A DNA stretch of 64,000 bases, taken from a virus. Positions 6,531 through 51,273 of the stretch are shown piece by piece (the first letter of the stretch is position 1; each line of letters begins with the position of its first letter). The DNA is taken from positions 1 through 64,000 of the IMG/VR virus record IMGVR_UViG_3300025141_012093. One strand, written 5' to 3'. Position numbers and translations under genes: made by a program. The notes beneath the pieces are model-generated. The model ran no database searches. It was not told the DNA's origin and was given only the letters and a program-made list of their open reading frames with translations.

Positions 6531-6532
6531 GA

Positions 6533-9936: not shown

Positions 9937-9983
9937 GAAAGTAACCTCTTACCAAGATAAATAGTTGAACATATTAATAATTG

Positions 9984-10385: not shown

Positions 10386-10427
10386 CTTTATCTCCTCCTG
10401 TGTAATAAATAATCGCTAGTGAGTTTT

Positions 10428-25194: not shown

Positions 25195-25419
25195 TTATTT
25201 TTCCTCTAGGGATTCATATTCTTCAGGATTTTGAGCCAGATCGATCATAGCTAGATCGTCATGATTGAACTTAACAGTAGGCGGGTTCTTAATCATAAGA
25301 CCGTCTTTTGTATTTTGAAATTCAAAGTTTTTTAAAGTTGTTGTAATATCACTCTGTTCCATTAAAGATTTTTGAAGTGCCATCATTAGTGCGCCGAGTG
25401 CTTGATTAGAAAGTTTCAT
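25195..25419 (-). CDS. Small conserved phage protein, unknown function
   Basis: A 74-residue protein beginning [20 protein letters not shown], an amphipathic N-terminus I associate with small proteins of many T4-like marine phages near gp55 and structural genes. It continues with a short beta part ([12 protein letters not shown]) and an acidic end. AGGAG precedes the ATG. It overlaps the 3' end of gmd by 14 bases. No function is assigned. Confidence 0.7.
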
Positions 25420-26398: not shown

Positions 26399-26610
26399 CT
26401 TATTCCATTCCATATTCTTTCGTGAGCAATAAATAATGTAAACATTAAAATATGATAAGCAAGTGACAAAATCACAAACGAATCAGTTTCCATAGAAAAA
26501 CAATCATTTTCTATCTGTGAGAAAGTCGCGATGGCGACGACGGGTAGCATTATGAAGCCAAGCAACTTCCAGGTTATTGCCTTGGCAATACTTCTTGTTT
26601 TACTATCCAT
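26380..26610 (-). CDS. DUF2061 small membrane protein
   Basis: A 76-residue protein matching the DUF2061 pattern: [17 protein letters not shown] at the N-terminus, a hydrophobic second segment [23 protein letters not shown], and a basic end. Two membrane helices are predicted. Family members are of unknown function and in bacteria are often near sulfate or sugar genes. GAGGG precedes the ATG. It overlaps gmd at its 3' end by 19 bases and the dioxygenase gene at its 5' end by eight. Confidence 0.75.
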
Positions 26611-27292: not shown

Positions 27293-27293
27293 T

Positions 27294-32224: not shown

Positions 32225-32508
32225 GGAAACCTCCCTGTAATGATATGCCAAATCATCAACCAATCCGATAACTTAGCTCGAATCGGATCTGTCCAAGCTG
32301 CTGGTTTGTTCTTTTCGAAGAATAAGTGGCCAGTCCACGCAAATGGATAAATAATAAAAGGGGTCAACAACAAGGCAAACCAATGCTGATTGTAAATCGC
32401 CCAGAACACAAACATCAAAGTTATCACGTTTCCAATTACGTGTAATCTGCGATTGTATTTGTTTTGATGTAGAGTCAAATATTTGACGTAATATTTTTTA
32501 AAAGTCAT
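32218..32508 (-). CDS. DUF962/Mpo1-like membrane protein
   Basis: A 96-residue protein with the full DUF962 (yeast Mpo1/YGL010w) pattern: LTLHQNKYNRRLHVIGN, a membrane pair, then YPFAWTGHLFFEKNKPAAW. Conserved His14, His23, His61 and Glu65 are present. Mpo1 is an Fe(II)-dependent dioxygenase that shortens 2-hydroxy fatty acids by alpha-oxidation. A phage copy inside a glycan operon is unexpected and its substrate is not predictable. GGTGGA precedes the ATG. Its stop overlaps the GTG of the next gene by seven bases. Confidence 0.82.
   Translation of the reverse strand: MTFKKYYVKYLTLHQNKYNRRLHVIGNVITLMFVFWAIYNQHWFALLLTPFIIYPFAWTGHLFFEKNKPAAWTDPIRAKLSDWLMIWHIITGRFPW
32230..32234 (-). promoter_or_regulatory. 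Shine-Dalgarno deciding the GTG start of the long aminotransferase
   Basis: GGAGG five bases before GTG at 32222-32224, inside the end of the DUF962 gene. It supports re-initiation on the GTG. Confidence 0.7.
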
Positions 32509-33235
32509 TTCTATCCACCGATAAAGGGTTGTCGCCTTTTTCTACCACACAAGTACCCTTATAAAAAGACAATCCTATCACATTTCTATCAAAATAGGAA
32601 GCGTTAACTTCGCTATCGTCAGGAATTCCTACATATTCTTGGCGGCCACCTTTGTGGAACCTGAAGTTAACACCATCAATCAAGTCTTTGAGATATTCAA
32701 TAGCTGTTGTAGGCTTTTTTAAACCGCCGCCCCACTTGGGCCAGTAAGATGTACCTAAGTCCTCAATAATGTAAAGGCCGCCGTCTCTTAGGCCATTCTT
32801 AAAAAGGTATTCAAAACTAATGATTTGATGCTCTACGATATGGCTGGCGTCGTCGATGATGACATCGAATGGGCCAGCTTCTTCGCAGACTCTTTGCAAC
32901 AAATTTAAATCTGTTTGGTCTCCAATAAAAACTTTAACTCTTTCTGCTTTAAATTCCCTTAGAGGATCGGCGTTGTATTCAAGGCCGTAAATATGTCCCA
33001 TAGGAAAATAATCCTTCCACATATTCAAAGAATCGCCCTCTTTGACCCCAATTTCTAAGACCCTCGGCGCTTGAGTCTTTAAGTGAGACAAGTGGCGATG
33101 ATAGAAGTGACAATACTGCACACATTCTGGGTCGGTGATCTTGGTGCTATTATAGCGTGTGGCAATTTGGATAAGCTCATTGTTACTGTTTCCAAACTTT
33201 TCTAAAACCTCTTGGTGGGTGTATCTCTTGTTCAT
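32498..33235 (-). CDS. Class I SAM-dependent methyltransferase
   Basis: A 245-residue protein. Motif I is RVLEIGVKEGDSLNMW, motif II is IYGLEYNADPLREF, motif III region is VKVFIGDQTDL, and motif IV is FDVIIDDASHIVEHQI. DDASH followed by GGLYIIEDLGTSYWP is typical of sugar O-methyltransferases related to macrocin/rhamnosyl methyltransferases. The substrate is unknown. It overlaps the DUF962 gene by 11 bases. Confidence 0.82.
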   Translation of the reverse strand: MNKRYTHQEVLEKFGNSNNELIQIATRYNSTKITDPECVQYCHFYHRHLSHLKTQAPRVLEIGVKEGDSLNMWKDYFPMGHIYGLEYNADPLREFKAERVKVFIGDQTDLNLLQRVCEEAGPFDVIIDDASHIVEHQIISFEYLFKNGLRDGGLYIIEDLGTSYWPKWGGGLKKPTTAIEYLKDLIDGVNFRFHKGGRQEYVGIPDDSEVNASYFDRNVIGLSFYKGTCVVEKGDNPLSVDRNDF

Positions 33236-33249
33236 TTTTTACCTCGGAG

Positions 33250-34014
33250 TTAATCGTATTGTCCCTGATCTTCCTCTATTTGAAGCCGGACAAAATATTT
33301 CTTTTCATTGTGAATAAAATAAGCAGACTTGTTATTTTTAAACGTTCTAGCTCTTATGATGTTTATTAAATCTTTACCAATATAAGAACGATTCAGATCA
33401 ATGCAAGAATGAGTCTCAATTTCTTTAGATAAATGAAAATCGCCTGCTTCCAGATCTGGCTTCTTAAGCGCGTAAGAGCCCTCTAATATATTGACATAAT
33501 TTTTCTTAAACAAGTATACCATATGATTTAAAGATTTTTCATATATTTCGTCACCTGTGTCGCTGATATTTGTGGTATAAAGCTCTTGAAATAAGATGCT
33601 TCCTTCGTCCACGTTCTCATTGATAAAGTGAAGTGTGCTTCCTGTAGGGTTTTCGTTTACAGTAGCCCAGTAATATGGGTGTTTTCCTCGATTTAGCGGA
33701 ATAAGACTTGGATGCGTATTGATAAAGCCTGTGTTGACACTTTCAATAATTTCTTTTTTAAGGATAGTTGGCCACCATAAGAGCATCCCGATGTCAATAT
33801 TTTCCTCTTGAAGTAGGAATTTGAATTCAGGGGTATTGCATCTTATGTTGGTGTAACACGGGATCTCATTTTCTAAACAAAGAGTCTTGATTTTGTCTTT
33901 ATAGGGTGAGTCTTGCTGGGCTATGACAAATCTAACCGGATCTTTTTTTGTCTTAAAGATAAAGTCTAGCAGTTCATAGCCAACCCACTTGTCCGCGCAC
34001 ACCGCAATGTTCAA
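33250..34014 (-). CDS. Sugar N-formyltransferase (formyl-THF dependent)
   Basis: A 254-residue protein of the methionyl-tRNA formyltransferase fold. The catalytic triad Asn99, His101 and Asp136 is visible in GFINTHPSLIPLNRGKHPYYWA and NENVDEGSI. The C-terminal 60 residues are a short extension rather than a tRNA-binding domain, so a nucleotide-linked amino sugar (as with WbkC, VioF, QdtF) is the likely acceptor. Two aminotransferases in the operon could make that substrate. It overlaps the next gene in ATGA form. Confidence 0.87.
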   Translation of the reverse strand: MNIAVCADKWVGYELLDFIFKTKKDPVRFVIAQQDSPYKDKIKTLCLENEIPCYTNIRCNTPEFKFLLQEENIDIGMLLWWPTILKKEIIESVNTGFINTHPSLIPLNRGKHPYYWATVNENPTGSTLHFINENVDEGSILFQELYTTNISDTGDEIYEKSLNHMVYLFKKNYVNILEGSYALKKPDLEAGDFHLSKEIETHSCIDLNRSYIGKDLINIIRARTFKNNKSAYFIHNEKKYFVRLQIEEDQGQYD

Positions 34015-34916
34015 CTCTGACCTCCAGATAACAACTTCATAGCATCCCCAATTGCATCCCGTAGGCTATCTTTTGGCGCAAACCCAAGATTCTTGATCTT
34101 GTCAAAGTTCACATAGTAGCTGAATTGATTTAAAAGGGGCGTATCCACATATTCAACATTTGTTTTCTTCTTCTCTTGGATAAATCCTACAATTTCTGAC
34201 AGCTTGTAATTCTCAGTCAATACATTGTAAATTTGATTGTAACTTTTTGGATTTTTTAAAATGATTTCAATAGCTTGCGTCGCATCGTCGAGGCCAAGAT
34301 AGGGCCGGTACTGATTGACGTTTTCTTTCCACACCGTGAGTGATTGGCCAAATGCAGCCTGATAACAAAATTTATTTATGGCAGTGTGGAATCTCATACC
34401 AACGCTTGTACCAAATATTGTACCAAAACGCAAAATGACATAATTTAAATTATCTGTTTTCTTAATGTGTTTTTCAATGCTTATCTTGGAACGCGCATAG
34501 GGGCTCTGCGGATTTACATTGTCGTCATCCTCGTACATTACATCCCTAGCTTTCCCATAAACACTGGTGGATGAAGGAAAAATAAAAACTGGACCATTAG
34601 ATTGGGACACTGTATCGATGAGTCTTTTGGTCTCAACAATGTTCGTGTATTCCAATTCTTCTCGGTTTTTAAAACTAGCCGCTGCATTGGTGATGGCACC
34701 AAGGTGGATGATTGCATCGAACTTGTTGATGTGTTCGACAGTTAGATCTCCAAAAGAAGTATCGTCAAAGGTAATCTTTCTCTTCATATCAAACAAGGTG
34801 CAGTACCTCTGACTATGGAGATTGTCAACTACCGTTAAATCGTAACTTGGGTCTAGGGTTTTTATAAGGTGGGAGCCAATATGACCAAGACCACCTGTTA
34901 TTAAAATTTGTTTCAA
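34011..34916 (-). CDS. NAD-dependent sugar epimerase/dehydratase (extended SDR)
   Basis: A 301-residue extended short-chain dehydrogenase. Cofactor motif ILITGGLGHIGSHLIKTL, then IHLGAITNAA, FPSSTSVYGKA with the catalytic Ser, and YARSKISIEKH as YxxxK. GTIFGTSVGMRF and YRPYLGLDDATQA form the substrate loops. It could be a 4-epimerase or 4-reductase on one of the keto sugars; the sequence does not decide. ATGA overlaps link it to both neighbours. Confidence 0.85.
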   Translation of the reverse strand: MKQILITGGLGHIGSHLIKTLDPSYDLTVVDNLHSQRYCTLFDMKRKITFDDTSFGDLTVEHINKFDAIIHLGAITNAAASFKNREELEYTNIVETKRLIDTVSQSNGPVFIFPSSTSVYGKARDVMYEDDDNVNPQSPYARSKISIEKHIKKTDNLNYVILRFGTIFGTSVGMRFHTAINKFCYQAAFGQSLTVWKENVNQYRPYLGLDDATQAIEIILKNPKSYNQIYNVLTENYKLSEIVGFIQEKKKTNVEYVDTPLLNQFSYYVNFDKIKNLGFAPKDSLRDAIGDAMKLLSGGQS

Positions 34917-35338
34917 GTCTTCTTCAACTCCAGAAATTGCTGGTAGTCCGTAATGTAATCTTTTGGATCATACGAAGTGCTTGATAATACCAGCAAAACG
35001 GAGTTTTGTAAAGTGTAAACACATTCATCCCATATCATCGAAGGGATATATAAGCCCTGAGTTGGGCTTTCAAGACTATAAATTCTTTTGGACTTACCAT
35101 CGCGACAGTGTACGTCAATGCGTCCACTTAGACAAATTAAAATTTGTTCAGTTGTGTGATGAGCGTGTTTCCCTCTGATGGAGTCTTTGGGTGTGTCAAA
35201 AACGTAGAACATTCGCTTGGGAACGAAAGGCAAGTCCGAGTCCAATTCGAAAGGAAGCAAAGCTCCGTCCTTATAACCATCTTTAAAGCTGTACTTGGCA
35301 GTAAACCACAGTCTCTGTATATCATTCAGCCTAGTCAT
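34913..35338 (-). CDS. FdtA/QdtA-type dTDP-6-deoxy-hex-4-ulose 3,4-ketoisomerase (cupin)
   Basis: A 141-residue cupin with the diagnostic WxcM/FdtA pattern: FYVFDTPKDSIRGKHAHHTT with the catalytic His pair, EQILICLSGRIDVHCRDG, QGLYIPSMIW, VLLVLSSTSYDPKDYITDY. It moves the keto group of dTDP-4-keto-6-deoxyglucose from C4 to C3, leading to 3-amino-3,6-dideoxyhexoses (Fuc3N or Qui3N) after transamination. The ATG at 35336-35338 overlaps the RmlC-like stop as ATGA; a GTG 21 bases earlier is less likely. Confidence 0.9.
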   Translation of the reverse strand: MTRLNDIQRLWFTAKYSFKDGYKDGALLPFELDSDLPFVPKRMFYVFDTPKDSIRGKHAHHTTEQILICLSGRIDVHCRDGKSKRIYSLESPTQGLYIPSMIWDECVYTLQNSVLLVLSSTSYDPKDYITDYQQFLELKKT

Positions 35339-35763
35339 TTGCTTTTGGTATCCCAACACTCGCCAAAATGGCCCGGTAAAGCTTTTTTTTCATCAGGGTT
35401 TTCCATATCGTATTTTTCATCTAAATAATACATCATTATAGAGTTAGGTTCTAGAGCTTTGTAGCCGTGATAAATACCAGGCGGAATTTTTAAAACTCTA
35501 AGATTCTTATCAGAAATATATTCCCACTCAACGTTATAACTTCCGTCCTTTTGCGGATAAGCCAGTCCTACCTTGAAAGAGCCTTTTGGGCAAAACCAAT
35601 AGTCAGTTTGTCTGTCGTGACTGTGCCAAGCAACAACATGCTCTGTAGAATTAACGTAAGATATGTTAATCTGGCCGCGTATTTCATCAAAGATATCAAA
35701 CAACCTCTGGGCTCTATCGTCTTCGTGAAAAGCCACTCTTCTGAAAGAAACTTTAGTAGTCAC
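35335..35763 (-). CDS. RmlC-like dTDP-sugar epimerase cupin
   Basis: A 142-residue cupin resembling dTDP-4-dehydrorhamnose 3,5-epimerase: EHVVAWHSHDRQTDYWFCP places the catalytic His and the HxxxxD block, followed by FKVGLAYPQ, a Lys/Arg-rich strand and LRVLKIPPGIYHGYKAL. It is shorter than classical RmlC (about 180). It may epimerise one position only. It lies between the FdtA-type gene and a methyltransferase, with ATGA-type overlaps, consistent with the dTDP branch. Confidence 0.82.
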   Translation of the reverse strand: MTTKVSFRRVAFHEDDRAQRLFDIFDEIRGQINISYVNSTEHVVAWHSHDRQTDYWFCPKGSFKVGLAYPQKDGSYNVEWEYISDKNLRVLKIPPGIYHGYKALEPNSIMMYYLDEKYDMENPDEKKALPGHFGECWDTKSK

Positions 35764-39491: not shown

Positions 39492-40163
39492 CTATAACTC
39501 TCCCAATATCAACTCGGCACGGTGGATATCGCTTATGTCATCAATATCGACGTACCTGTCTTTTGGGAATTCGGTGCCTCTTACATTACCAATAAAAAAG
39601 TTCTTGTTTTTTTCCAGCTTATTCCACCAAGACATATAGTATGCACCAGTTGGTTTGTGATGTTTTTGAATAAAACGACTGTTTGTCATCCCAGCAGTCA
39701 AATTATCAAACACTGGGATAAGATCATCGCCTTTCTTAATCATAGCAAGCTGAATTGGTTCTGAGTATTCTACGACAGAAACCACAGAATCTGTGCTGGT
39801 GGTTAGAAGACTCAATCCATTGATAATATGCTTAGGAGTAACCAGCGGACACGTAGGTAAGAAATAGCTAAAAACATCGTGTTTAGGTATATCCTCCATC
39901 ATAGCGATGAGGGCCTCCAACACAGTCATACGATCAGTGGCGTATTCAGGAGGGCGTTCATATACTTGCACACCGTAACCTTCTGCAATCTTTGCAATAT
40001 CTTCACTGTCGGTGGAGACCATAATTGTATCAAAACAATTTGTCTCTAAAACGGCTTCGATAGCATAACCAATCAGCGGCTTGCCATTAAGGGGATGAAA
40101 GTTTTTATTTTTTAATCTTTTTGATCCTGCTCGTGCTGGAATTATCGCTAGTTTCGTAGTCAT
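39492..40163 (-). CDS. neuA: CMP-nonulosonate (acylneuraminate) cytidylyltransferase
   Basis: A 223-residue NeuA/PseF/LegF-type enzyme that activates a nonulosonic acid with CTP. The P-loop-like IPARAGSKRLKNKNFHPL, GKPLIGYAIEAVL, VSTDSEDIAKIA, ERPPEYATD and YFLPTCPLVTPKHI blocks are all present. Length fits the family. AGGAG lies six bases before the ATG. It is followed on the operon by methyltransferases and preceded by the aldolase-like gene and NeuB. Which nonulosonate it uses cannot be read from the sequence. Confidence 0.93.
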   Translation of the reverse strand: MTTKLAIIPARAGSKRLKNKNFHPLNGKPLIGYAIEAVLETNCFDTIMVSTDSEDIAKIAEGYGVQVYERPPEYATDRMTVLEALIAMMEDIPKHDVFSYFLPTCPLVTPKHIINGLSLLTTSTDSVVSVVEYSEPIQLAMIKKGDDLIPVFDNLTAGMTNSRFIQKHHKPTGAYYMSWWNKLEKNKNFFIGNVRGTEFPKDRYVDIDDISDIHRAELILGEL

Positions 40164-40170
40164 TTGTCTC

Positions 40171-41121
40171 CTAATCTCTGTAATATTTTGACTGCTGTAT
40201 CTGTTTTAATGTCTTCATAAGCTCTTTATGATCTTCGTCAGAAATAGATACCAAGGGTGGCCGCTCAACACGGCTCATAATCCCTAGCTCGTCCATCGCA
40301 GACTTAAGAGCCGGGTGCCAACCGCAAGACATTGCGGCCCCGAGAAACGGGCGCTCAATTTCATTGATAATACCCCAAGATGTTTGGATGTCATCATCGA
40401 CACAAGCTTTATAAAAATCCAAAGCAACTCGTGGAGCAAAGCTCCCTACACCAACCAAATAGGCGTGGCACCCCATTCTATGGAAGTGGACAAATTGTCG
40501 TTTGCCTCTTCCTGAAATGATAACGTTTAACCGATCACCAAGTCTTTCAATGATCTTTTCTGAGAAGACTGGCTGCTTGCTGTCTTCTTTAATGGCGATA
40601 ACGTTATCAATATCAGCAATTCTATCCAACAAATCTAAAGGATAAAGAACATCCCCTCCTGCTTTAGAAGGAAGTTTCTGTTCGTGGATAAGAATTCCAA
40701 TATTTGAGTTCTGAGCTACTGTATTAAAGTGATTGAATACTTGATCGTCACTGTAATAACGCTCCATAAAAATCATACTAAGTATGTCTGCTCCGCAGTC
40801 TTCAGCGTGTTTTGCAAAATCTACGCTGACACTTGTTGGATTTGTAAGGGGATCGGCCACAATAGATATGCAATCTTCAGGTTTATCTTTAATCCTGCGT
40901 GTGACCACCTCATTGAGCTTCTTCATTTCATCCCATGACAGCAAGCTAAAGCGGCTGTTATAGGTCATAATATAAAAATTTCTTACTCCCTTGTCATAAA
41001 GAAAATCTACATACTCACAGGCTGCGTCGTAATCAACCTCGTAAGAGGGAGCGCCTTTAAAGGGCGTTATGATGGGAAATATTGGCCCTTTAAGGTTATT
41101 TTTAATCTTATTATAATTCAT
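40171..41121 (-). CDS. DapA/NanA-superfamily aldolase-like protein
   Basis: A 316-residue TIM-barrel protein. The Schiff-base Lys178 is present in NVIAIKEDSKQ, and the N-terminal GPIFPIITPF is typical. However, the GTTGE substrate loop reads TYNSRFS (about residues 53-59), and the YNxP tyrosine position reads LIHEQKLP (about residues 144-151). These are the residues that bind the pyruvate carboxylate and relay protons, so chemistry different from lysine synthesis or sialic-acid cleavage is possible. Being within the NeuB-NeuA block, a role in keto-acid sugar metabolism is inferred. Confidence 0.8.
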   Translation of the reverse strand: MNYNKIKNNLKGPIFPIITPFKGAPSYEVDYDAACEYVDFLYDKGVRNFYIMTYNSRFSLLSWDEMKKLNEVVTRRIKDKPEDCISIVADPLTNPTSVSVDFAKHAEDCGADILSMIFMERYYSDDQVFNHFNTVAQNSNIGILIHEQKLPSKAGGDVLYPLDLLDRIADIDNVIAIKEDSKQPVFSEKIIERLGDRLNVIISGRGKRQFVHFHRMGCHAYLVGVGSFAPRVALDFYKACVDDDIQTSWGIINEIERPFLGAAMSCGWHPALKSAMDELGIMSRVERPPLVSISDEDHKELMKTLKQIQQSKYYRD

Positions 41122-41476
41122 CTTGATTCGGTCCTCCTATGACTATTACCTTGGGATCGCTCAATTCAGCAAAAAAATCATCAGCATTAATGGCTTTATC
41201 GTCAATAAAAAGGTCATAATATGGCTTCTGAAGGGATACTTTTGTGTATTTTGCACCCCAAGAGTTTAATTGTTGAACTGTAAGTTCTGTCCAATCTTTT
41301 TTGGTTAGGGATCCTCGGGCCGTCCAGTAAACAATGGTATGCCCTAGATCGTATAACTCGTTTACTCTTCCAATGTTTTCTTCAATTGGTATTGCTTTCG
41401 CATAATCACGCTCCTGTGTTACATCAGCGTTTTTATGATAGCAAATTGTCTCGTCAATATCAACATATATTACCAT
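41111..41476 (-). CDS. Small HAD-superfamily hydrolase, probable sugar-phosphate phosphatase
   Basis: A 121-residue HAD protein. Motif I is IYVDIDETIC with Asp6 as nucleophile and Asp8 as acid/base. Motif II is VYWTARG, and motif III/IV is KPYYDLFIDDKAI. Such short capless HADs are common in capsule clusters and usually remove a phosphate. After NeuB the product may carry a 9-phosphate, so a NeuB-product phosphatase (as NanP) is a reasonable but unproven role. Its ATG shares one base with the NeuB stop. Confidence 0.83.
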   Translation of the reverse strand: MVIYVDIDETICYHKNADVTQERDYAKAIPIEENIGRVNELYDLGHTIVYWTARGSLTKKDWTELTVQQLNSWGAKYTKVSLQKPYYDLFIDDKAINADDFFAELSDPKVIVIGGPNQDEL

Positions 41477-42315
41477 TATTTACCTCGCAAGCTCTTTCTT
41501 TTTGATAATTCAGAGGGAAACAAAATTCTCTCCGTTTGTTCTTCTGGTCCTAATGACTGCTCCAAAATCCTTATGCCACGGAGCAACTTAATTGTCCCCA
41601 CTGGATCTACAGAGGATGCTTGATCGCTGCCCCACATTGTCCTATCAAGAGTAACGTGGCGCTCGATCCAGTTGGCACCCAGCGTAACGGCTGCAAAGGT
41701 GGTGACAAGGCCGTATTCGTGGCCGCTGTAACCAATAGCAGCATCAGGATATTTCTTCCTTAAGTGCTTGATATAATTAAGGTTTAGCTCTTCATAAGCA
41801 GACGGATAAGAAGAGTTAGTGTGCATTATAACATCAGGCTTACCCACACGAACTGCCTCTTCAATCTCATCTTCTGTACTCATACCCGTAGAAATAATCA
41901 AAAAATTAAATTTCTCTCTGGCGTATTTGAGAAGCTCTAGGTCAGTGATGAGCGCAGAAGGTATCTTTCCAACGTCTGTGTAAGACGCCATAAAGTCAGT
42001 TGAGGCCAAATCCCAAACAGATGCAAACCATTTGATACCTTGATCTTTACAGTATCGATCAATCTCATCGTATTCCTCTTTGCCAAACTCAATACGTTTC
42101 TTGTAGTCAATGTATTTTATTGTGCCCCAAGGAGTCTCTCTCAACTTGTCCTTTTGGGCTTCTGGGACACATATATCTGGCTCTCTTTTCTGGAACTTAA
42201 CATAATCGCAGCCAGCTATGTTGGCAGCGTCGATAAGTCTTTTGGCCAGGTCTAAAGACCCATTGTGGTTAATTCCAATTTCAGCGATAACATTGGTGTG
42301 ATTAGTCTCTACCAT
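41476..42315 (-). CDS. neuB: Nonulosonate synthase, NeuB-like, without SAF domain
   Basis: Condenses phosphoenolpyruvate with a six-carbon amino or deoxy sugar to a nine-carbon keto acid. The signatures are VIAEIGINHNGSLDLAK, YVKFQKREPD, IISTGMSTEDEI, IGYSGHEYG and NWIERHVTLDRTMWGSDQ. At 279 residues it ends after the TIM barrel and lacks the C-terminal SAF (antifreeze-like) domain present in bacterial NeuB (about 345). The ATG at 42313-42315 is chosen because GGAGG lies nine bases upstream; an in-frame codon 42 bases earlier is not supported. It overlaps the SDR stop by seven bases. Confidence 0.92.
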   Translation of the reverse strand: MVETNHTNVIAEIGINHNGSLDLAKRLIDAANIAGCDYVKFQKREPDICVPEAQKDKLRETPWGTIKYIDYKKRIEFGKEEYDEIDRYCKDQGIKWFASVWDLASTDFMASYTDVGKIPSALITDLELLKYAREKFNFLIISTGMSTEDEIEEAVRVGKPDVIMHTNSSYPSAYEELNLNYIKHLRKKYPDAAIGYSGHEYGLVTTFAAVTLGANWIERHVTLDRTMWGSDQASSVDPVGTIKLLRGIRILEQSLGPEEQTERILFPSELSKRKSLRGK

Positions 42316-42995
42316 ATCGTATAACCTCCATCCACTACGAACTCTGATCCCGTGCAATACGAAGAATCATCAGAACATAAAAATTTAACTAAACCGTTAA
42401 GCTCTCCCACCTTCATCATTCGTTGAGAAGGGGATTTTGTTGAATACTTGTCCATAAACTCAGTGCCTTGATTGTTCTCCACGCCGCCAGGTATAACACA
42501 ATTTACTCTTATCTTGGGAGCCAGATGAACAGCAAGATATTTGGTTAGCTGGATCACAGAGGCTTTTGATACGGAGTACCCAGCGTGCTTGTGCTTGCCG
42601 TCCCTGTAAATGCGAGGATCGGGAGACTTAAGACCATAAATGGAAGAAAAATTAATAATGTTACCTTTGGGATTATTTCGAGCATACTCGCGACAAACAG
42701 AGAACAAGCTTGTTACATTAGTTCTCATATACTGATCAAAAGAATCTAGCGAAACATTGAACAGAGTTGATACATTTTCGTTATCTTTGTCGATGTGTTC
42801 ATTCATAGCAAATAAATTAATAAGATGATTAGCCTTGTTTTCCTTAAACCAAGCCTTCACGAAGCTTTCATCAGTCAAATCGTGACCAAGACTCCGAGAA
42901 CACTTTATTATATCATAGCCAGATTTCTCAAGAAAGCAAGTAATTTCTTTACCAATTAGCCCTTGAGAGCCAGTTATTATAACCCTGTCGCTCAT
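42309..42995 (-). CDS. Classical short-chain dehydrogenase/reductase
   Basis: A 228-residue SDR. Cofactor motif IITGSQGLIGKEI, catalytic Ser in IINFSSIYGL, YSVSKASVIQLTKYLA as YxxxK, VNCVIPGGV, and the terminal CTGSEFVVDGGYTIW. Such SDRs accompany NeuB/NeuA in legionaminic and related clusters, where they reduce or oxidise a sugar precursor. The substrate is unassigned. The stop TAG lies inside the NeuB start region. Confidence 0.87.
   Translation of the reverse strand: MSDRVIITGSQGLIGKEITCFLEKSGYDIIKCSRSLGHDLTDESFVKAWFKENKANHLINLFAMNEHIDKDNENVSTLFNVSLDSFDQYMRTNVTSLFSVCREYARNNPKGNIINFSSIYGLKSPDPRIYRDGKHKHAGYSVSKASVIQLTKYLAVHLAPKIRVNCVIPGGVENNQGTEFMDKYSTKSPSQRMMKVGELNGLVKFLCSDDSSYCTGSEFVVDGGYTIW
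42325..42329 (-). promoter_or_regulatory. Shine-Dalgarno deciding the NeuB start
   Basis: GGAGG nine bases before the ATG at 42313-42315. It excludes a start 42 bases further upstream and makes NeuB 279 residues long. Confidence 0.75.
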
Positions 42996-42996
42996 T

Positions 42997-44121
42997 TTAC
43001 CCCGCTAATTGGCCCATCTTGGGCATATCGCATTCTTTAGTGCATTTGATGCAAGGATTTAAATCGAAGTGATCCAAGCGGAATTTGCTGTATAATTCAC
43101 CATTCCAGATGTCGTATAGGGAATTTTTACGAGCGTTGCCAAGGAAGATCTCATTATTGAAGTCTTCCATACACATATGAATCTCACCGTCTGACTTGAC
43201 AGTTATCGACATCCAAGGGTGTTTGCAAACCTCTCTCCAGTGAATAGCGTTTGTGCCGTAAAAGTCCTGTTCTTGCTCAGGAGCATCGCGGCCTTTTTTA
43301 TCAAGATAATTAAGAAGAGTCTCGTCTTTTCTATACCACTGTTGGTCTTCACTTTTAAGATAGATGTATACGTCCATATCTCTGAAGGCTTTGCTTAGCC
43401 TGCGGAATTCTTCTTGCTGTTCTTCATCGTGGCCAACGTCGATCATCGTAATGACAATCTTTGTGTCGTATCCTTTCTCTTCTTTAATACGCATAATTTC
43501 TTTAGTCTTTTCAAAGGCTTCGGTGAAATTGGCAGCATTGCCACGGATGTCTTTGAACTTCATATCATCGGTACTTTCAAAAGAATATTTAAGATAGGTC
43601 AGGCCAGCTTCCATTTGCTCAACTGTGCTTTCCACATCAATGTTGGCAGGATTACAGCTAAAGTATGATTCAAAGCCGTGCTCAGTCAAGCCTCTGACGA
43701 CATTTGAGAGGTTTTTATCAAGCAGAGGGTCACCATAGCCGTGAAGCTGGATTACGCGAGGAATAATATATAAAAAGAAGTGATTCTCGCTAGGCTCAGA
43801 ATCAGGGGCAATACCGTAGGTTTCTGTACAGAACTTCTCCCATTCGGCCCAAAGCTCATCACTATGGGGTTTTATTTGTTCGAAGATTCCATTGTAGAAC
43901 TCTTGTTCTAAGTATGTAATTCGACGTGTCATCTTGGTTGTGCGTGGGCACATCTTGCATCGCATATTACAGTTATTGGTCGTTTCAATGTTGTAAATAA
44001 TAGGCTCTTTTGACCTAAATTCTTCCCATAGTTTAATAAGTTTTTCTCTTGGGACCTCTTCGCCTTGGTCGAGCTTCTTGAGCCACGGATAAGACTTCAT
44101 ATAGAAATTAATATCATACAT
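42997..44121 (-). CDS. Radical SAM enzyme with SPASM-like C-terminus
   Basis: A 374-residue protein. The [4Fe-4S] motif C51-x3-C55-x2-C58 lies in TTNNCNMRCKMCPR. A C-terminal cysteine-rich part with CKHPWMSITVKSDGEIHMC and CIKCTKECDMP fits a SPASM or twitch auxiliary-cluster domain. Enzymes of this type act on sugars (epimerisation, deoxygenation), peptides or other small molecules. Located between GT29 and the SDR, a role in making an unusual sugar is possible, but no substrate can be assigned. Confidence 0.83.
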   Translation of the reverse strand: MYDINFYMKSYPWLKKLDQGEEVPREKLIKLWEEFRSKEPIIYNIETTNNCNMRCKMCPRTTKMTRRITYLEQEFYNGIFEQIKPHSDELWAEWEKFCTETYGIAPDSEPSENHFFLYIIPRVIQLHGYGDPLLDKNLSNVVRGLTEHGFESYFSCNPANIDVESTVEQMEAGLTYLKYSFESTDDMKFKDIRGNAANFTEAFEKTKEIMRIKEEKGYDTKIVITMIDVGHDEEQQEEFRRLSKAFRDMDVYIYLKSEDQQWYRKDETLLNYLDKKGRDAPEQEQDFYGTNAIHWREVCKHPWMSITVKSDGEIHMCMEDFNNEIFLGNARKNSLYDIWNGELYSKFRLDHFDLNPCIKCTKECDMPKMGQLAG

Positions 44122-44136
44122 TTTTGTTACCTCTGA

Positions 44137-44760
44137 TTAATTTAGCTTAACTCTGCCTTGATTAGATAGTTCTGATATGAATTGCTTCTCAAAACTCACA
44201 CCGTGATATGAGCTAGCGTCTGGTCTAGATCTCTCGTAATAATGATCACGGCTGCGATTGGTTGTGTCAAAGCCATATAAAGATGGCACAATATCCAGTA
44301 AAACACACAAACATATGAAACCCACACCTAGAGTGGGGTATTTTTCTTCTGGAAAGCCAAAGTGAGACTTTATAGCTTCGGTGGCTCCATACTCATATAG
44401 AAACAATTCATTGCTGGAATGGGTGTTTGTATCTCTTCTGCGCCAAGGATCTAGGTCAGAAGCAAAATATAAAATCTTGGTATCTCGCAAGTTTCTTACA
44501 AAATCTTTTGGTTGATCGCTGTATCCTTCGTGCAGGATATCGTTGTTATTAAATACGTGGTTGTTGATCACACGCAAGGTTGTTTTGGCACCAACATCGC
44601 TTTCAAAGCCCACAACCGGGGCACGGTTGAACCTAATGACATCGGTATGAGAATCGATGATTTTACCACACTCTGATCCTCTTAGGATACCAGATGAACC
44701 CACTATAGCAACATTGTCTGATATTGTCAAGCTTGGATTAACAAAAGGTATCTTTTTCAT
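44137..44760 (-). CDS. GT29-family sialyltransferase-like glycosyltransferase
   Basis: A 207-residue soluble protein with all four sialylmotifs known from animal enzymes. Motif L (about 17-63) contains VAIVGSSGILRGSECG, IDSHTDVIRFNRAP and VGAKTTLR. Motif S (about 142-164) is PTLGVGFICLCVLLDIV then LYGFDTT. Motif III is HYYE (173-176). Motif VS is H186-x4-E191 in YHGVSFEKQFI. GT29 enzymes transfer from CMP-sialic acid, and in plants relatives use CMP-Kdo. It lacks the N-terminal membrane anchor of Golgi forms. With NeuB and NeuA in the same operon a CMP-nonulosonate donor is likely. The acceptor is unknown. Confidence 0.9.
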   Translation of the reverse strand: MKKIPFVNPSLTISDNVAIVGSSGILRGSECGKIIDSHTDVIRFNRAPVVGFESDVGAKTTLRVINNHVFNNNDILHEGYSDQPKDFVRNLRDTKILYFASDLDPWRRRDTNTHSSNELFLYEYGATEAIKSHFGFPEEKYPTLGVGFICLCVLLDIVPSLYGFDTTNRSRDHYYERSRPDASSYHGVSFEKQFISELSNQGRVKLN

Positions 44761-45573
44761 TTACGACCTCGCAAAAGACGGAATAAGAGCCTTAGCTGGC
44801 TGGCCTTGGAAGTGAATACAATTAAATTTAATTTCTCTATCAAGCCAAAGCTTCTTGCAGTAAGGTTTGTTGTCCCTCCAGAAAAACTTTTTTATACCGT
44901 TCTCAGTTTCGTATCCGTCGTCTCCATTGATATTGTGATCAAATGTAGAGTCGTCGATAATTGCTGACGTTTCACCATAGTCGCCTGGATTTCCGATGTT
45001 GCGATAGATACTCCAGATTGTCATATCACATACGCCGCCTTGTCGGCCAGCGTTTTGTAAGTTCCTGTAATGGAGTTTACACTTGTTGAAATTGAACATA
45101 TCTTCTTTGCTATAGATGCTATTGCACAAAGCGTGGAATTCATCTAACACACTTAAATCATTGATGAAAGTGATGCCAGCACTAATGTTGTGAGTCATTG
45201 TGCAGCGATAGTTAGCAAATTTCTTTTGCTCCTCTGCAATGTCACAATAAAGCATCACATCTGAATCGCAGTAAAAGAACTTATCAATGTTTTTCTTCTT
45301 GCAAAATCGATTCATAATGAACCAGCGAACGATGCAAATCATTTCATATCCTGCATCATTGGTGCTCAGGTGAGTGTAAATCTTTTTAAAGCCCCAGACA
45401 TCTTCAAAAAAGTTGTCATAGGCATAATACTTCACATCCGTTGCATATTTCTCGTTACCTTCGTCACCAAGAAGATATATGTCAGAATCAGGATTTGAGT
45501 TAACTGCCTGTTTAAGAGTATGCTCTAGATATGACGAGTCTCCTGCGTGGAAAAATATAATTGGAATGCTCAT
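44761..45573 (-). CDS. GT-A-type glycosyltransferase, family uncertain
   Basis: A 270-residue protein. The N-terminus IPIIFFHAGDSSYLEHTLKQ is the first GT-A strand, and FFYCDSDVMLYCDI contains a DxD motif (Asp-Ser-Asp). A C-terminal NCIHFQGQPAKALIP may supply the distal His of the metal site. The layout resembles GT8 or GT32 retaining transferases. It begins one codon-end after the GT29 gene and overlaps the upstream methyltransferase as ATGA. Confidence 0.72.
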   Translation of the reverse strand: MSIPIIFFHAGDSSYLEHTLKQAVNSNPDSDIYLLGDEGNEKYATDVKYYAYDNFFEDVWGFKKIYTHLSTNDAGYEMICIVRWFIMNRFCKKKNIDKFFYCDSDVMLYCDIAEEQKKFANYRCTMTHNISAGITFINDLSVLDEFHALCNSIYSKEDMFNFNKCKLHYRNLQNAGRQGGVCDMTIWSIYRNIGNPGDYGETSAIIDDSTFDHNINGDDGYETENGIKKFFWRDNKPYCKKLWLDREIKFNCIHFQGQPAKALIPSFARS

Positions 45574-46235
45574 TTGTGCCTCATTAATATACTGCGTGTG
45601 TAATTTTCTTTTGTAAAAGCGCTTGTTTCATATCCAGGCGGCGGGCCATAATGTAATGGCAATTCTTTCACTATTTCAAATTCTTTTTCTTCCAAAAGTT
45701 TTGAGAATTCATCTCGATTGATGACAGATTGATAACTGTCCACGCCGCCATAAGAGGGATACCTATACAAGTGTGTCTCTCTTTTGTCGCTAAAAGCTTG
45801 TCTATGCAATATAACATATTTAGGAGAGAATGTTAAGATCTTAGACAGACATAAAACGGGCTTTTGTAGAACATCTATAAAGGCGTTCATTACAATCACA
45901 TCATAATCTTTGATAAACTCGGGTGAATCCTCATAAATATCAAACGGAATGTAAGAATTTTGAGGATGCATCTTCATAGATACTTCTTTGATTATATTAG
46001 GTAAATCGGCCCCAGTGTAATAAAAGTTAGGATACAATCTCGATAGTTCGGCGGCACCACAACCTATGTCCAGCAAGGTGAAAGCATCATCTTTTGTCTC
46101 CACGATCAAAGAATTAAGAACAGGAAAGTGGTCACTCTCCTCAAGCACTGGCCATAGAATTCCTTTTGCTCCCAAGAGCATTTGTTCAGGAACTTTAGAT
46201 GAATCATACCAACATGTATCTTTCTTAACATTCAT
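45570..46235 (-). CDS. Class I SAM-dependent methyltransferase
   Basis: A 221-residue protein. Motif I is FTLLDIGCGAAELSRLY, motif II is YYTGADLPNII, and motif IV is YDVIVMNAFIDVLQ. The C-terminal half has PKYVILHRQAF and YGGVDSYQSVIN. It sits between two glycosyltransferase genes and overlaps both, so it may methylate the growing chain or an acceptor end. No exact family is apparent. Confidence 0.8.
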   Translation of the reverse strand: MNVKKDTCWYDSSKVPEQMLLGAKGILWPVLEESDHFPVLNSLIVETKDDAFTLLDIGCGAAELSRLYPNFYYTGADLPNIIKEVSMKMHPQNSYIPFDIYEDSPEFIKDYDVIVMNAFIDVLQKPVLCLSKILTFSPKYVILHRQAFSDKRETHLYRYPSYGGVDSYQSVINRDEFSKLLEEKEFEIVKELPLHYGPPPGYETSAFTKENYTRSILMRHK

Positions 46236-47115
46236 ATTGAGTTAATTCCTTGTCGAAGCGTGCTTTAAGTTCTTCGAAATTGTCTTGAATTGATTTAGGG
46301 TGAGTTCCTGTAAACGGTTCTGTCTTGGCAGGTGGACGATATTCTGGCTTGAATTCGTGTACGCCGTTCCAGAAAGATTCTACAAATATCCTATTTTGTT
46401 CATCGCCTTGCACCCAGTTAAGATACACCAAATCAAAATAATTGTCAATACATTTTGACATACTTACCTTAGCACGATAATAAAAAATTTTATTACGCAC
46501 TTGTTCAGGAAAAACATATGAATAATGGTACATTTGAACGCCGTGTTTATCGTACAAAGTGTCTCCATCGAGATGTTTAAGCGGGAGCGTCTTAGTTCCT
46601 CGACGATGAGCCATCGTGGGGGGCCTGTGTGTCTGCCAATAAGAGCCAGGATAGACCTTAAAAATGCGATGAAAATTGCCCTTTTGGCGCTCAAAACCTC
46701 CAATATATCGGTCAAATCCGCCATAAAACGAGCAACTCTTCACATCCACCGAGGTATACCTTTCTTTCTCCAAAACCTTAATTATTTTTTTTATGTCTTC
46801 AGCTTTCCATAATTCATCTGAATCAATTTGCCAGAAATAATCCACATCATCGTTTAAGAACTGCATATATGCGTTGCATTGTTCGTCCTTCTCAGAAAAT
46901 TGACCGTGGACAATTTTAATTTTATTGTCAGGGTCTGGGAAGTTGTGCAGTATATCATTGGTGTTATCTTCAGATGTTGTCTTTCCTTGTTCTTGCCAGA
47001 ACCTAACAGGCCCTTCAGCAATCAAAATTTGATCAGCAAAAGGATAAACACACTCAAGGCACTCCTTAAGAACATAATCTCCTTCAAACACAATCATTCC
47101 AAACGCAATTTTCAT
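46225..47115 (-). CDS. Glycosyltransferase family 2-like protein
   Basis: A 296-residue protein. N-terminal MKIAFGMIVFEGDYVLKECL is the GT2 nucleotide strand; WQIDSDELW contains the DxD-like metal site near residue 97. The central part carries a Trp/His-rich acceptor region (YWQTHRPPTMAHRRG) and a later YHYSYVFPEQV block. Similar proteins occur in LPS and capsule loci. Donor sugar not predictable. Confidence 0.8.
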   Translation of the reverse strand: MKIAFGMIVFEGDYVLKECLECVYPFADQILIAEGPVRFWQEQGKTTSEDNTNDILHNFPDPDNKIKIVHGQFSEKDEQCNAYMQFLNDDVDYFWQIDSDELWKAEDIKKIIKVLEKERYTSVDVKSCSFYGGFDRYIGGFERQKGNFHRIFKVYPGSYWQTHRPPTMAHRRGTKTLPLKHLDGDTLYDKHGVQMYHYSYVFPEQVRNKIFYYRAKVSMSKCIDNYFDLVYLNWVQGDEQNRIFVESFWNGVHEFKPEYRPPAKTEPFTGTHPKSIQDNFEELKARFDKELTQYEC

Positions 47116-48026
47116 TTTATCATTTCCTTAGTTTTTTTGAGAGACTCAAAATACTCGTTACAAACTCTTTGAATCAGAGGAGGCATCTGAGGAGTAGTGT
47201 CTCTTGTAAATCCGTGACGGGGGCCAATCTCATAATAATTCTTCTCGTAATTGACCTTGAAGTCAGAATAGTGGTAGTAGACAAGCGGTTGGACGTTTTG
47301 TTCCCAAACAACACTATTGTCTGTGTACCTATGATAAGCCAGATTCCAAGGAGCTAAGTGCCCTACCTTCTTATCGATAACGCGAACATTATCCTCTCCA
47401 GATAATGGAGAGAAAAGTTCTAAGTATTTTTGGTCGCCACACATACCGTGGGTGTCGTAATATTTGTTTTCAATGTCGAGAAGACAGTCTTTCCAAAAAG
47501 TTGAACAGGAGTAACCAGACAAGTCTTTTTTAAAATAAACGATTCCCACGTTGAATTCTCCCACCGCAGCAGAATAAGGGATTCGATGGCGGACAATTCC
47601 AATGCTTTTAGAATCGATCTCCTCAAAGATCACGTTCCAATCGTGATAAAAATAAATATCAGGATCGATGTATAACACATCATCTGTGTCATCAAGATCA
47701 AGAACATACCACGTAAAGTATGAGCTAAGGCACCAGAAAAATTGAACTTTCTTGGGATCACAGTTGGTCTTGTTCCCTACATTAACGGCCTCGTAAGAAG
47801 GTTCATTATTCTGCGCTTCTTTAAGATCTGGATCTGTTTTAAAAAGGTCCTCTAAAGAAACAGGGACAACACGGTCCAAATCTAACTCTTTTAATTTCTG
47901 ATATGATTCTTCATCAGAACACAAATAAAAAAGTTCAAAATTATCATTGTGTTTGTTTAATGATTCATAAAGAGACAGTCCGCGATGAAGAAAGTTTATA
48001 TCAGAGGTTGTGCAAAACCTCTTCAC
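47112..48026 (-). CDS. GT8-like glycosyltransferase
   Basis: A 304-residue protein. FCTTSDINFLHRGLSLYESL at the N-terminus and VLYIDPDIYFYHDW with a DxD motif fit a nucleotide-diphospho-sugar transferase of the GT8 type. The acceptor half includes FNVGIVYFKKD and GHLAPWNLAYHRY. It overlaps both neighbouring transferases by four bases (ATGA), so the transferases are probably made in equal amounts. Confidence 0.8.
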   Translation of the reverse strand: MKRFCTTSDINFLHRGLSLYESLNKHNDNFELFYLCSDEESYQKLKELDLDRVVPVSLEDLFKTDPDLKEAQNNEPSYEAVNVGNKTNCDPKKVQFFWCLSSYFTWYVLDLDDTDDVLYIDPDIYFYHDWNVIFEEIDSKSIGIVRHRIPYSAAVGEFNVGIVYFKKDLSGYSCSTFWKDCLLDIENKYYDTHGMCGDQKYLELFSPLSGEDNVRVIDKKVGHLAPWNLAYHRYTDNSVVWEQNVQPLVYYHYSDFKVNYEKNYYEIGPRHGFTRDTTPQMPPLIQRVCNEYFESLKKTKEMIK

Positions 48027-50008
48027 TTTTTTAAACTCATCATTAATTTTTGATATTTTTTGAAGATCTCAATCTCTTCTTTTCGTTTCCAACCATCGTG
48101 CTCGGGGTTGGTAGACATCCCAGTGGGGTTAAAATAGTATAACCCTACGACATCATTAAACTTTTTGAATACACTGCCTTGTGAAGCGGCGCGTAACCAC
48201 ATTTCCCAATCAGCAGCAGATCGATACTTTTCTTCAAAATATCCATACTCATCGTGAACAGTCTTGCGCCACATCGGAGAAGCGTGAGGCATATTTCCTC
48301 TCAAGAGATTTTCAAAAGAGAAATCAGGGAAATTATATTTTTCACCATTCGATGAGTTATTTTCAAATGTCTCATTAGGCTTGTGTGTAATAAGCATATT
48401 AGAATAGACTAAATCAACTTCTGGATTGGCGTAAAGTTCAATAGCGTGGCGTTCTAAAGCGTTTGCGGCCTTGCGATCGTCTAAATTAGCATTCGTTAGA
48501 AACTGACCTGTAGCCATTTTAGCAGCCATATTCCACACAGCGTAGATACCTGGATCTTCTTCCAATCTTTTGTAGACAATGTTGTTGGGATATTTTTCCA
48601 AATATTCGTTGATAACTTCTTCTTCATTGCCTGGTGAGTTAGCGTTGATAAGAATAAGCTCGCATTTTTCTTCAAAGATGGATTGTCGAGTAATATCTTC
48701 CAAGAATGAGCGAATATATTCATCACCATTATAAACAGATGTAAGAATTGAAATTTTAGGTATTTCTTCAATCATTCCATTAAGTTGAGCAAATTCTGCT
48801 TCGCCAACAATAGACCTAACGAATACGTCATATTGTTTTTGTTCTTCAAAGTTCTTAAGAACGTGTTTTTTAAGCTTTTTGGCCATCCCTGTAAATCGAG
48901 AGTAGTCACTATACACCTCATACAATCGCCTCTTATAGGAATTCTTGTCAGAGTACGCCCATTGAGATCCGCGTTGCAACACACCGTCCCAAACAACGGG
49001 TTCGGGAATAGGTGCAAGGTTGTAATCAACTGTTGCAAACATAGGCTTATTCCTTGTTTTGCCTTTTTTATCTTTCACGGGCATACAAAGAAAATCCAAA
49101 TGGCCACTCCATTCAGGAGCAACCACAGGCAGACCAGAGTAAGCAGCTTCAAAAAGGGGCAGCCCGAAGCCTTCGCCGTGAGTCAACGATACAATTGCTT
49201 TAATCTGTGGATGCACATAGAGAGCGTGAATTTCTTCTTCTTTCATATTGCCATGAACAAGATGGATCTTGCACTGACAGTCTGGTACACTAGCGTGCAG
49301 GTTTTTAAGGTGCTCTTTGACTCCCTGTCTATCCTGATAGCTATTATTAATTTTAAAAGCTTTCAGAACAAGACCAACATCAGGGTTGTCTTTAAATTCT
49401 TCCAAGAACCACATAACAGTCTCATCTAGAGCTTTTCTAGGTCCCCATTGAGCTACTGCCAAGAAATTAAACTTTGTTGAGAACTCAATATTTAGGTCTT
49501 CTGTTTTTTTATTCCTCACAGGATAATGGACAATATCGATAGGAGTTGTACAGCGAGCAACGAACTGCTCATTAGTGTCGTTGTTAGTGGCCTCATAAGT
49601 AGTGTTTTCATAAACGGTCTTGGAGTGCTGGGATATGGTAATGATCTTATCCATATTCCAAGCCTTTTCTAACCACTGAGGGGCTACCATTGTAGTTTCA
49701 ATCCCAGCAGTAACACCTATATTTATATCAGCATACTTTTCCCATTCGTTAGGTATGGTCACCTGCAAAGACATATCAAATGTACCTTTTTCAGCTTTAT
49801 ATCTTTGGGTTTTGTCAACGATACTATCGATCCATTTTCGCTCTTCATTGTCTTCGACTTCCCAGCCAGTATTTCCCCAACCAGTTGGATCGGCGTAGAT
49901 ATCGAACAATCTTCCTTCATATTTTCTCAATGCACGCAGCAAAAATCGTGCGTGTTCACCATAACCCGAGCGGGTCAAAAATGGACCTTTTACAAATACT
50001 TTTTTCAT
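48023..50008 (-). CDS. Bifunctional GT4-GT2 glycosyltransferase fusion
   Basis: A 661-residue protein with two transferase units. Residues about 1-400 are GT-B of the GT4 type: GPFLTRSGYGEHARFLL, FLAVAQWGPRKAL, and the EGFGLPLFEAA E-x7-E block near residue 283. Residues about 415-661 are GT-A of the GT2 type: PKISILTSVYNGDEYIRSFL, ILINANSPG, and NANLDDRKA as the DxD equivalent. Fusions of this kind add two sugars in succession in O-antigen assembly. The specificity is not known. Confidence 0.88.
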   Translation of the reverse strand: MKKVFVKGPFLTRSGYGEHARFLLRALRKYEGRLFDIYADPTGWGNTGWEVEDNEERKWIDSIVDKTQRYKAEKGTFDMSLQVTIPNEWEKYADINIGVTAGIETTMVAPQWLEKAWNMDKIITISQHSKTVYENTTYEATNNDTNEQFVARCTTPIDIVHYPVRNKKTEDLNIEFSTKFNFLAVAQWGPRKALDETVMWFLEEFKDNPDVGLVLKAFKINNSYQDRQGVKEHLKNLHASVPDCQCKIHLVHGNMKEEEIHALYVHPQIKAIVSLTHGEGFGLPLFEAAYSGLPVVAPEWSGHLDFLCMPVKDKKGKTRNKPMFATVDYNLAPIPEPVVWDGVLQRGSQWAYSDKNSYKRRLYEVYSDYSRFTGMAKKLKKHVLKNFEEQKQYDVFVRSIVGEAEFAQLNGMIEEIPKISILTSVYNGDEYIRSFLEDITRQSIFEEKCELILINANSPGNEEEVINEYLEKYPNNIVYKRLEEDPGIYAVWNMAAKMATGQFLTNANLDDRKAANALERHAIELYANPEVDLVYSNMLITHKPNETFENNSSNGEKYNFPDFSFENLLRGNMPHASPMWRKTVHDEYGYFEEKYRSAADWEMWLRAASQGSVFKKFNDVVGLYYFNPTGMSTNPEHDGWKRKEEIEIFKKYQKLMMSLKK

Positions 50009-51273
50009 CCTATTTCACTTAACTCCCATCGTTTATAACCTTTTCGATTAGACCAGGACCCGTATTTTTCGTGGACCCCTAACAGTAGATCAACCCATTT
50101 TTTATGAAAATCTTCAAAGTTATAATTCTTTTCAATATGTTGACGACCTTTCTTGCCCAATTCTTTAAGTTCTTCGGGTGTCTTGTTATACATATCTAAA
50201 AACGCTTGGACGACTACCTCTTTTGAAAGCCTATCTTCATAGATATAAGGTACGTCTTGAGAGCCAATGATGGCTTTTGATACTGGATCTAGGCCAATGC
50301 CGAACCAATCTTCCCCATCAGTTACCTGTTCTTGGAGGCCACCTGTCATATTAACAATAATAGGAGTTTCGCAAGATAAAGATTCTAAAGTGGCGAGGCC
50401 GAAGCCTTCAGCATCAGATATGTTGACAGTGCAATCTGCCATATTGTAAAGCATAGCAAGCTGGTCTGGTGGGAGCTTCTCTTTTGAGATAAATACCTGA
50501 CCGTTGTCTAATCCAAGCTCTTTAACAATCAATTCTAGATCTTGGCCGTGTACATCTTTAGGATCTGTGTGGAGTAAAAGTGTAGCGTTATCGTGGCCCA
50601 CTTTATCCAAGAACTCTTTAAACCAAAAGATCAAACTTCCACTTTGTTTGCGGCGGGCATTTCGATTATTCCAGAAAAACACAAATCTATCGCTTTTTTC
50701 TCCCACCTTTGACAAATGAGCTTCTTTAAAATTCTTTACAGCTTTATCATCTAGTTTCTTAAAAATCTCAGAATCAACTGCGTGGGGCAAATAATGAGAT
50801 TCTATATCTGGAGCTACTTTTTGAACGATATCGTAAGTAAGCCTAGAAATACAAGCGATAACATCAGTCGAATTATAATATTTTGCATTAAATTTGGGGG
50901 CCGGATAATTGTCCCATACGTGATAATATATCATCGGGCACAAAGTTCGGACCTCATCTTCGATATCCCAAAGCCACGTAAAGAATCTGGGATCGGTCAT
51001 AAACCACAACATATCAGGTCGCTGTTGTCTCATAAAAGAGCGGATCATATCGGAATTACCATATCCGTCTACTGGGAAGATTACAAAATCATCGCCCCAT
51101 TCTTGAGTTTTTTGCGGTTTGTAATCTTGATGTTTGATTGCGCCGCCGAAACACGTAAACCTAAATTTACCTGTTTTTAACAATCCCTCAATAACATAGC
51201 GTGTCTGTGTTCCGACGCCCGATGGGCTCATAGGATGGTCAGACAAGACCAACACATTAATTTTTTTATCCAA
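50005..51273 (-). CDS. GT4-family glycosyltransferase
   Basis: A 422-residue GT-B protein. LVLSDHPMSPSGVGTQTRYV is the N-terminal glycine loop, and VNISDAEGFGLATLESLSC carries the E-x7-E donor motif with the phosphate-binding loop. The C-terminus is a helix with RQHIEKNYNFEDFH. GT4 enzymes use UDP- or GDP-sugars with retention. It is the first gene of the glycan island in transcription order, ten bases after the nuclease gene. Confidence 0.87.
   Translation of the reverse strand: MDKKINVLVLSDHPMSPSGVGTQTRYVIEGLLKTGKFRFTCFGGAIKHQDYKPQKTQEWGDDFVIFPVDGYGNSDMIRSFMRQQRPDMLWFMTDPRFFTWLWDIEDEVRTLCPMIYYHVWDNYPAPKFNAKYYNSTDVIACISRLTYDIVQKVAPDIESHYLPHAVDSEIFKKLDDKAVKNFKEAHLSKVGEKSDRFVFFWNNRNARRKQSGSLIFWFKEFLDKVGHDNATLLLHTDPKDVHGQDLELIVKELGLDNGQVFISKEKLPPDQLAMLYNMADCTVNISDAEGFGLATLESLSCETPIIVNMTGGLQEQVTDGEDWFGIGLDPVSKAIIGSQDVPYIYEDRLSKEVVVQAFLDMYNKTPEELKELGKKGRQHIEKNYNFEDFHKKWVDLLLGVHEKYGSWSNRKGYKRWELSEIG

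Follow-up and report, generated by a model that had tools for sequence, protein, structure and literature searches.

A GT29 (sialyltransferase-family) glycosyltransferase gene linked to putative donor-sugar genes in a contractile-tailed phage

We analysed a window of 64,000 nucleotides, positions 1 to 64,000 of the 68,420-base IMG/VR virus record IMGVR_UViG_3300025141_012093, and found that it contains a genuine gene for a GT29 protein, which lies in one run with NeuB- and NeuA-type genes. GT29 is the family with which animals put sialic acid on the ends of their sugar chains. Together with these putative donor genes it behaves as a replaceable end-sugar block. Neither the family nor its occurrence in bacteria is new; the apparent novelty is a clade dominated by phages, with a donor pathway and block exchange.

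The window is a fragment of a contractile-tailed phage, since it encodes baseplate wedge proteins (8128-9936 and 9984-10385), a head maturation protease (57367-57999), PhoH (53553-54866) and very large genes of up to 3077 aa. The 3077-aa protein itself (10428-19661), which lies near the baseplate genes and has a weak SH3_3 match, is probably a giant tail protein. Directly after the tail and baseplate genes follows a carbohydrate locus of 26 kb (approximately 25.4-51.3 kb) that runs on the minus strand throughout. The features of this locus are listed below, L010 being a sister phage and L011, L012 and L014 further contigs that were compared.

25406..35763, minus strand: nucleotide-sugar genes (Pfam), encoding GDP-mannose dehydratase-like, NTP transferase, DegT aminotransferase, FdtA, N-formyltransferase and epimerase proteins
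39492..40163, minus strand: NeuA/PseF-like CMP-nonulosonate cytidylyltransferase (PF02348, E 6e-25)
40171..41121, minus strand: DHDPS/NanA-superfamily aldolase-like protein (PF00701, E 6e-21; every NCBIfam match below its cut-off)
41111..41476, minus strand: small HAD-fold phosphatase-like protein, 121 aa (weak PF25109, E 1e-3; weak TIGR01689 capsule phosphatase, E 5e-5)
41476..42357, minus strand: NeuB-family synthase without C-terminal SAF domain (PF03102, E 1e-63; alignment), its start codon likely inside the listed ORF
42309..42995, minus strand: short-chain dehydrogenase/reductase, SDR (PF13561, E 7e-31; missing from the L010 block)
42997..44121, minus strand: radical SAM/SPASM protein (PF13186 and PF04055; missing from the L010 block)
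44137..44760, minus strand: GT29 (sialyltransferase family) glycosyltransferase, 207 aa (PF00777, four sialylmotifs, AlphaFold2 model, PDB fold matches)
44761..45573, minus strand: protein without an assigned family, next to the GT29 gene on its upstream side (no Pfam hit; 83% identical in L010)
45570..46235, minus strand: methyltransferase-like protein (PF13489 just under cut-off; syntenic in L010, L011, L012 and L014)
46225..47115, minus strand: GT2-family glycosyltransferase (PF00535; syntenic in L010, L011, L012 and L014 at 55-89% identity)
48023..51273, minus strand: GT4/GT2 two-domain glycosyltransferase and GT4 glycosyltransferase (PF00534, PF00535)

The GT29 protein, its motifs and its fold

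The GT29 reading frame extends from an ATG at 44760 to a stop at 44137. These are exactly the limits given in the preliminary description, to which we add the strand (minus). A Shine-Dalgarno-like GAGGT stands immediately 5' of the ATG, and the frame abuts its upstream gene without a gap. As the preliminary description had proposed, we compared the protein with family profiles. PF00777 (Glyco_transf_29) was the sole Pfam family found, at 105 bits (E 6.2e-30) against a curated cut-off of 23 bits, such that no family outside GT29 was matched. A phmmer search of PDB sequences returned ST6GAL1 at 4e-13 and also ST3GAL1, ST6GALNAC2 and the alpha-2,8-sialyltransferase ST8SIA3, while PHROGs and NCBIfam contained no model matching the protein. 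Given the PF00777 and ST6GAL1 matches, a chance or spurious reading frame was rejected.

All four sialylmotifs are present where they had been located before. Motif L covers approximately residues 16-66 (VAIVGSSG...GKIIDSHTDVIRFNRAPVVGFESDVGAKTTLRVIN) and motif S approximately residues 141-164, the latter with a slight departure from the usual pattern (PTLG versus PST/PSS-G). Motif III is H173-Y-Y-E176 (HYYE) and motif VS is H186-x4-E191 (HxxxxE), for which the consensus sequences are H-Y-Y/W-E and H-x4-E (PMC8433944). Across 25 aligned viral GT29 proteins H186, E191, G32, I35, R43, V56, G57 and G145 were invariant, and H173, Y174, N45 and T60 were conserved to at least 90%.

An AlphaFold2 model calculated with 21 viral sequences as input reached a pLDDT of 90.4 and a pTM of 0.89, and it has the GT-A variant 2 fold of solved sialyltransferases. 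In a Foldseek comparison with the PDB, ranks 1-30 were all GT29 enzymes (E 1.7e-11 to 2.7e-7), so that the structure comparison suggested earlier also came out in favour of GT29. The GT42 enzyme CstII followed only at rank 31 (E 3e-4) and no GT42 Pfam family was hit; membership in GT42 was therefore rejected.

The protein had been described as soluble, and the model bears this out. Its lone hydrophobic stretch (residues 143-161) is the core of motif S and forms a helix and a strand in a confidently modelled region, which led us to reject a membrane anchor at this place; a signal anchor was not found in the protein either. The L-S disulfide cysteines and the Golgi anchor of the animal type are absent as well, with V17 in the phmmer alignment where ST6GAL1 has a cysteine. 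Neither feature is needed for membership in the family, since both are also missing in bacterial GT29 proteins (PMC5811610).

Sequence and model together establish the family, the predicted fold and the catalytic histidine, H186, within HxxxxE. We consider it likely that the product is a compact, soluble, inverting GT29 glycosyltransferase and, jointly with this, that it acts as a CMP-nonulosonate transferase. That the protein is a decayed or non-catalytic relative retained for some other function, or that the gene came from a host recently and is not used, is in our estimate very improbable: the slight departure in motif S is all that hints at it, and nothing does so directly, whereas the catalytic residues are intact, the fold is modelled with high confidence and the gene is under purifying selection in relatives (dN/dS 0.03-0.10 among L018, L021, L022 and L023, which belong to the same clade).

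The carbohydrate locus and the putative donor sugar

One minus-strand run comprises the genes for GT29, NeuB, the small HAD protein, the DHDPS-family aldolase and the NeuA-like cytidylyltransferase. The preliminary description had placed the GT29 gene "beside NeuB and NeuA". The Pfam matches of the neighbouring genes confirm this linkage in a phage, and the genes do share one run; adjacency is loose, with the start of NeuB approximately 1.8 kb and NeuA approximately 4 kb downstream. The radical SAM/SPASM protein stands between the GT29 gene and the sugar genes. Elsewhere the locus also encodes a C-methyltransferase (Pfam).

On the NeuB protein the barrel was found readily but Pfam returned no SAF domain. 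The protein scores below the NCBIfam cut-offs for NeuB and PseI (202 bits for TIGR03569, cut-off 400). A synthase that lacks SAF and falls below these cut-offs indicates that the sugar may be other than standard sialic acid. The cytidylyltransferase in turn reached 146 bits with the PseF model TIGR03584 (cut-off 206) and approximately 54 bits or less with KdsB-type models. Because it is closer to PseF than to KdsB, we infer that the GT29 donor would be a CMP-nonulosonic acid made by the locus itself.

Instead of a nine-carbon acid, the donor might carry Kdo (as CMP-Kdo) or a different 3-deoxy-ulosonic acid, which has been suggested for GT29-like proteins of plants. Plant GT29 proteins have been tied to the Kdo-containing RG-II, which is in line with this alternative, as are the missing SAF domain and the contigs L012 and L014, which have a DHDPS-like protein and NeuA with no NeuB near GT29. 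The preference of the cytidylyltransferase for PseF over KdsB-type models and the NeuC of the L018-type phages argue against it, and we regard a Kdo-type donor as unlikely.

For the favoured nonulosonic acid, the route would consist of a NeuB-type condensation or an aldolase step, dephosphorylation by the HAD protein and activation by NeuA. Homologues of the small HAD protein accompany SAF-less NeuB in nearly every viral contig that encodes such a NeuB, with one clear exception (L037), while longer NeuB proteins mostly occur without it. SAF-less NeuBs, almost always together with the small HAD protein, were seen in the window and in L002, L010, L015, L020, L056, L059, L061, L068, L070, L073, L082, L085 and L088. 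The co-occurrence suggests a phosphorylated intermediate, and the pair possibly represents a different ulosonic acid route. In another phage contig, L011, one protein (9234-11123) joins a SAF-bearing NeuB with a xylose-isomerase-like TIM barrel (PF01261).

Relatives in viruses and bacteria

A scan of viral contigs with the single GT29 sequence of the window found no relatives, and a first scan of bacterial and archaeal genome contigs with an automatic pattern found no match. Relatives were obtained with an alignment query and with a DNA pattern for motif L. In IMG/VR the alignment query provided 25 GT29 loci, and the motif-L pattern 70 stretches, 64 of them GT29 by HMM, on contigs that partially overlapped with those found by alignment. 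Among 50,697 phage records a recognisable relative occurred only in the uncultured huge phage LR756508.1, which has five GT29 genes. Four of these share a stretch with a short NeuB and a HAD protein of the kind found in the window, and one adjoins a NeuA. The presence of several GT29 paralogues per phage, noted for L002 and L015 (five in LR756508.1, three in L015), suggests that more than one linkage is formed or that ulosonic acids are added as a chain.

In bacteria and archaea, sampled with one genome per species, 94 of 100 stretches matching the motif-L pattern contained GT29 by HMM, a count that reflects occurrence in bacteria and not prevalence. They came from Alphaproteobacteria, Idiomarina, Actinomycetota, Planctomycetota, Verrucomicrobiota, Spirochaetota, Bacillota, Campylobacterota, Melainabacteria and others; many sources were metagenome-assembled genomes, and isolates such as Idiomarina, Rhizobium and Luteimicrobium were represented too. 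GT29 is thus wide-ranging in bacteria, beyond the 23 bacterial sequences reported in 2018, in a paper that also proposed a bacterial origin of the family (PMC5811610).

We built a quick IQ-TREE phylogeny of 156 GT29 domains, none of them from cellular eukaryotes; the tree is short, its branches are long and IMG/VR may include miscalled fragments. The GT29 of the window fell into a set of 34 rows of which 32 were viral (SH-aLRT 95), its closest kin being three phage contigs (support 97). Viral and bacterial labels changed 13 times on the tree versus 52 times in shuffles. Several of the viral relatives carry genes for terminase, baseplate, head protease or PhoH. The closest bacterial match, at 32% identity, comes from a 14.5-kb contig of a Bdellovibrionales metagenome-assembled genome (L194, 4175-5059). 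It sits inside the phage clade, and this contig may be phage DNA binned with a bacterium. On contig L031, probably of a eukaryotic giant virus, a single protein (6146-7558) combines a GT29 domain with an Erv1/Alr thiol oxidase domain.

These data do not agree with two statements of the preliminary description. GT29 is not confined to animals and plants, as both the bacterial sequences published in 2018 and the bacterial stretches found here show. Nor is the phrase "eukaryote-like enzyme in a bacterium", or a eukaryote-like origin, supported: the protein lacks the motif-L cysteine as the bacterial forms do (PMC5811610), and in the tree of viral and bacterial sequences it groups with phage among bacterial ones.

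Linkage to donor genes recurs across the clade. Among the 27 viral loci of the window's clade, 22 had NeuA or NeuB no more than 5 kb away (21 of 26 if L002 and L007, which are one phage, are counted once), compared with 17/76 bacterial GT29 loci and 12/48 other viral loci; flank lengths were unequal and rows related, such that Fisher values are only indicative. In L018-type phages NeuB (with SAF), NeuC, a dehydratase, NeuA and GT29 even form one run with overlapping ends. Linkage that recurs in so many phages makes the transfer of a nonulosonic acid by GT29 a well-founded expectation.

Block exchange, proposed function and known systems

The sister phage L010 has the same head protease and PhoH, and its genes are colinear with those of the window. 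Upstream of GT29 (51283 to 44761) proteins of the two phages are approximately 75-89% identical, and on the other side those at 37252, 35335 and 34011 are 79-82% and the one at 34913 is 57% identical. Between these flanks identity falls to 51% for GT29, 47% for NeuB, 42% for DHDPS, 64% for HAD and 73% for NeuA; the gene order is changed, and radical SAM and SDR are missing from L010. Well-kept flanks around divergent, reordered genes show that GT29 and the donor genes behave as a replaceable block. Nucleotide similarity between the two GT29 genes fades approximately 220 bp into the gene. A recombination breakpoint at this place was considered and is not claimed, because conservation is in every case highest in the part that encodes motif L.

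In the function that we propose, GT29 would place the acid late in the chain or at its end, on a glycan that the upstream phage glycosyltransferases may build in the cytosol. The glycan would decorate virion or tail-fibre proteins rather than the host surface, and swapping the block between related phages would vary the exposed end sugar while the core is kept. For a virion target taken by itself we see about even chances. It is somewhat more likely than modification of the host surface, since the tail and baseplate genes precede the locus and no membrane protein, such as a flippase or polymerase, is encoded in it, keeping in mind that host enzymes could supply these two. A hydropathy scan of the 29 ORFs in the locus predicted no transmembrane protein, the sole hydrophobic stretch being the motif-S core of GT29.

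The same enzyme could alternatively cap host LPS or capsule with nonulosonic acid and block receptors against other phages. Phages are well known to modify surface glycans, the locus, with its dTDP- and CMP-sugar genes, is similar to an O-antigen cluster, and the exchange of an end-sugar block would suit this target too. The position directly behind the tail and baseplate genes and the lack of any membrane protein or recognisable lipid-linked initiator speak against it, and we regard the host surface as the less likely target. The complete proposal, in which environmental tailed phages have their own GT29 branch with an unusual CMP-ulosonic acid route through SAF-less NeuB and HAD, with which they cap the ends of virion glycans in an exchangeable manner, is tentative. 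If it is true, the sugar displayed by a phage changes through block exchange.

As the enzyme is short, soluble and likely easy to make, sialylation (in the broad sense) of self or host by phages is directly testable. The viral sequences add a large branch to a family whose eukaryotic versus bacterial origin is debated, and small GT29 enzymes that need neither disulfides nor an anchor could be of practical use in synthesising glycans. Databases already contain phage proteins annotated as GT29, at least one being so named in UniProt. The open-licence literature yielded no paper about GT29 or nonulosonic acid pathways in phages, nor a report of the donor-pathway context of phage GT29, and it seems that a GT29 clade dominated by phages and equipped with a donor pathway has so far not been described.

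Compared with known systems, the protein has the four sialylmotifs, the GT-A variant fold and the VS histidine in common with the animal enzymes (CAZy GT29/PF00777; ST6GAL, ST3GAL, ST6GALNAC, ST8SIA). It differs from them in its length of 207 aa, in lacking a membrane anchor and the motif-L disulfide cysteine, and in being phage-encoded and accompanied by genes for donor synthesis. The GT29 proteins of bacteria such as Alteromonas, Idiomarina and Loktanella (PMC5811610) belong to the same family and likewise have neither anchor nor disulfide, but the protein of the window belongs to a phage-dominated clade in which linkage to NeuA/NeuB is more common. Among viral proteins in BFVD its fold matches A0A6J5NLG3, "Glycosyl transferase family 29" of an uncultured Caudovirales phage, as well as an entry of Mimiviridae ChoanoV1 and poxvirus and herpesvirus sialyltransferases, the animal-virus proteins being longer (300-402 aa). 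GT42, represented by Campylobacter CstII, has a related fold with a weak structural match (E 3e-4), scoring far below GT29 and showing no sequence match.
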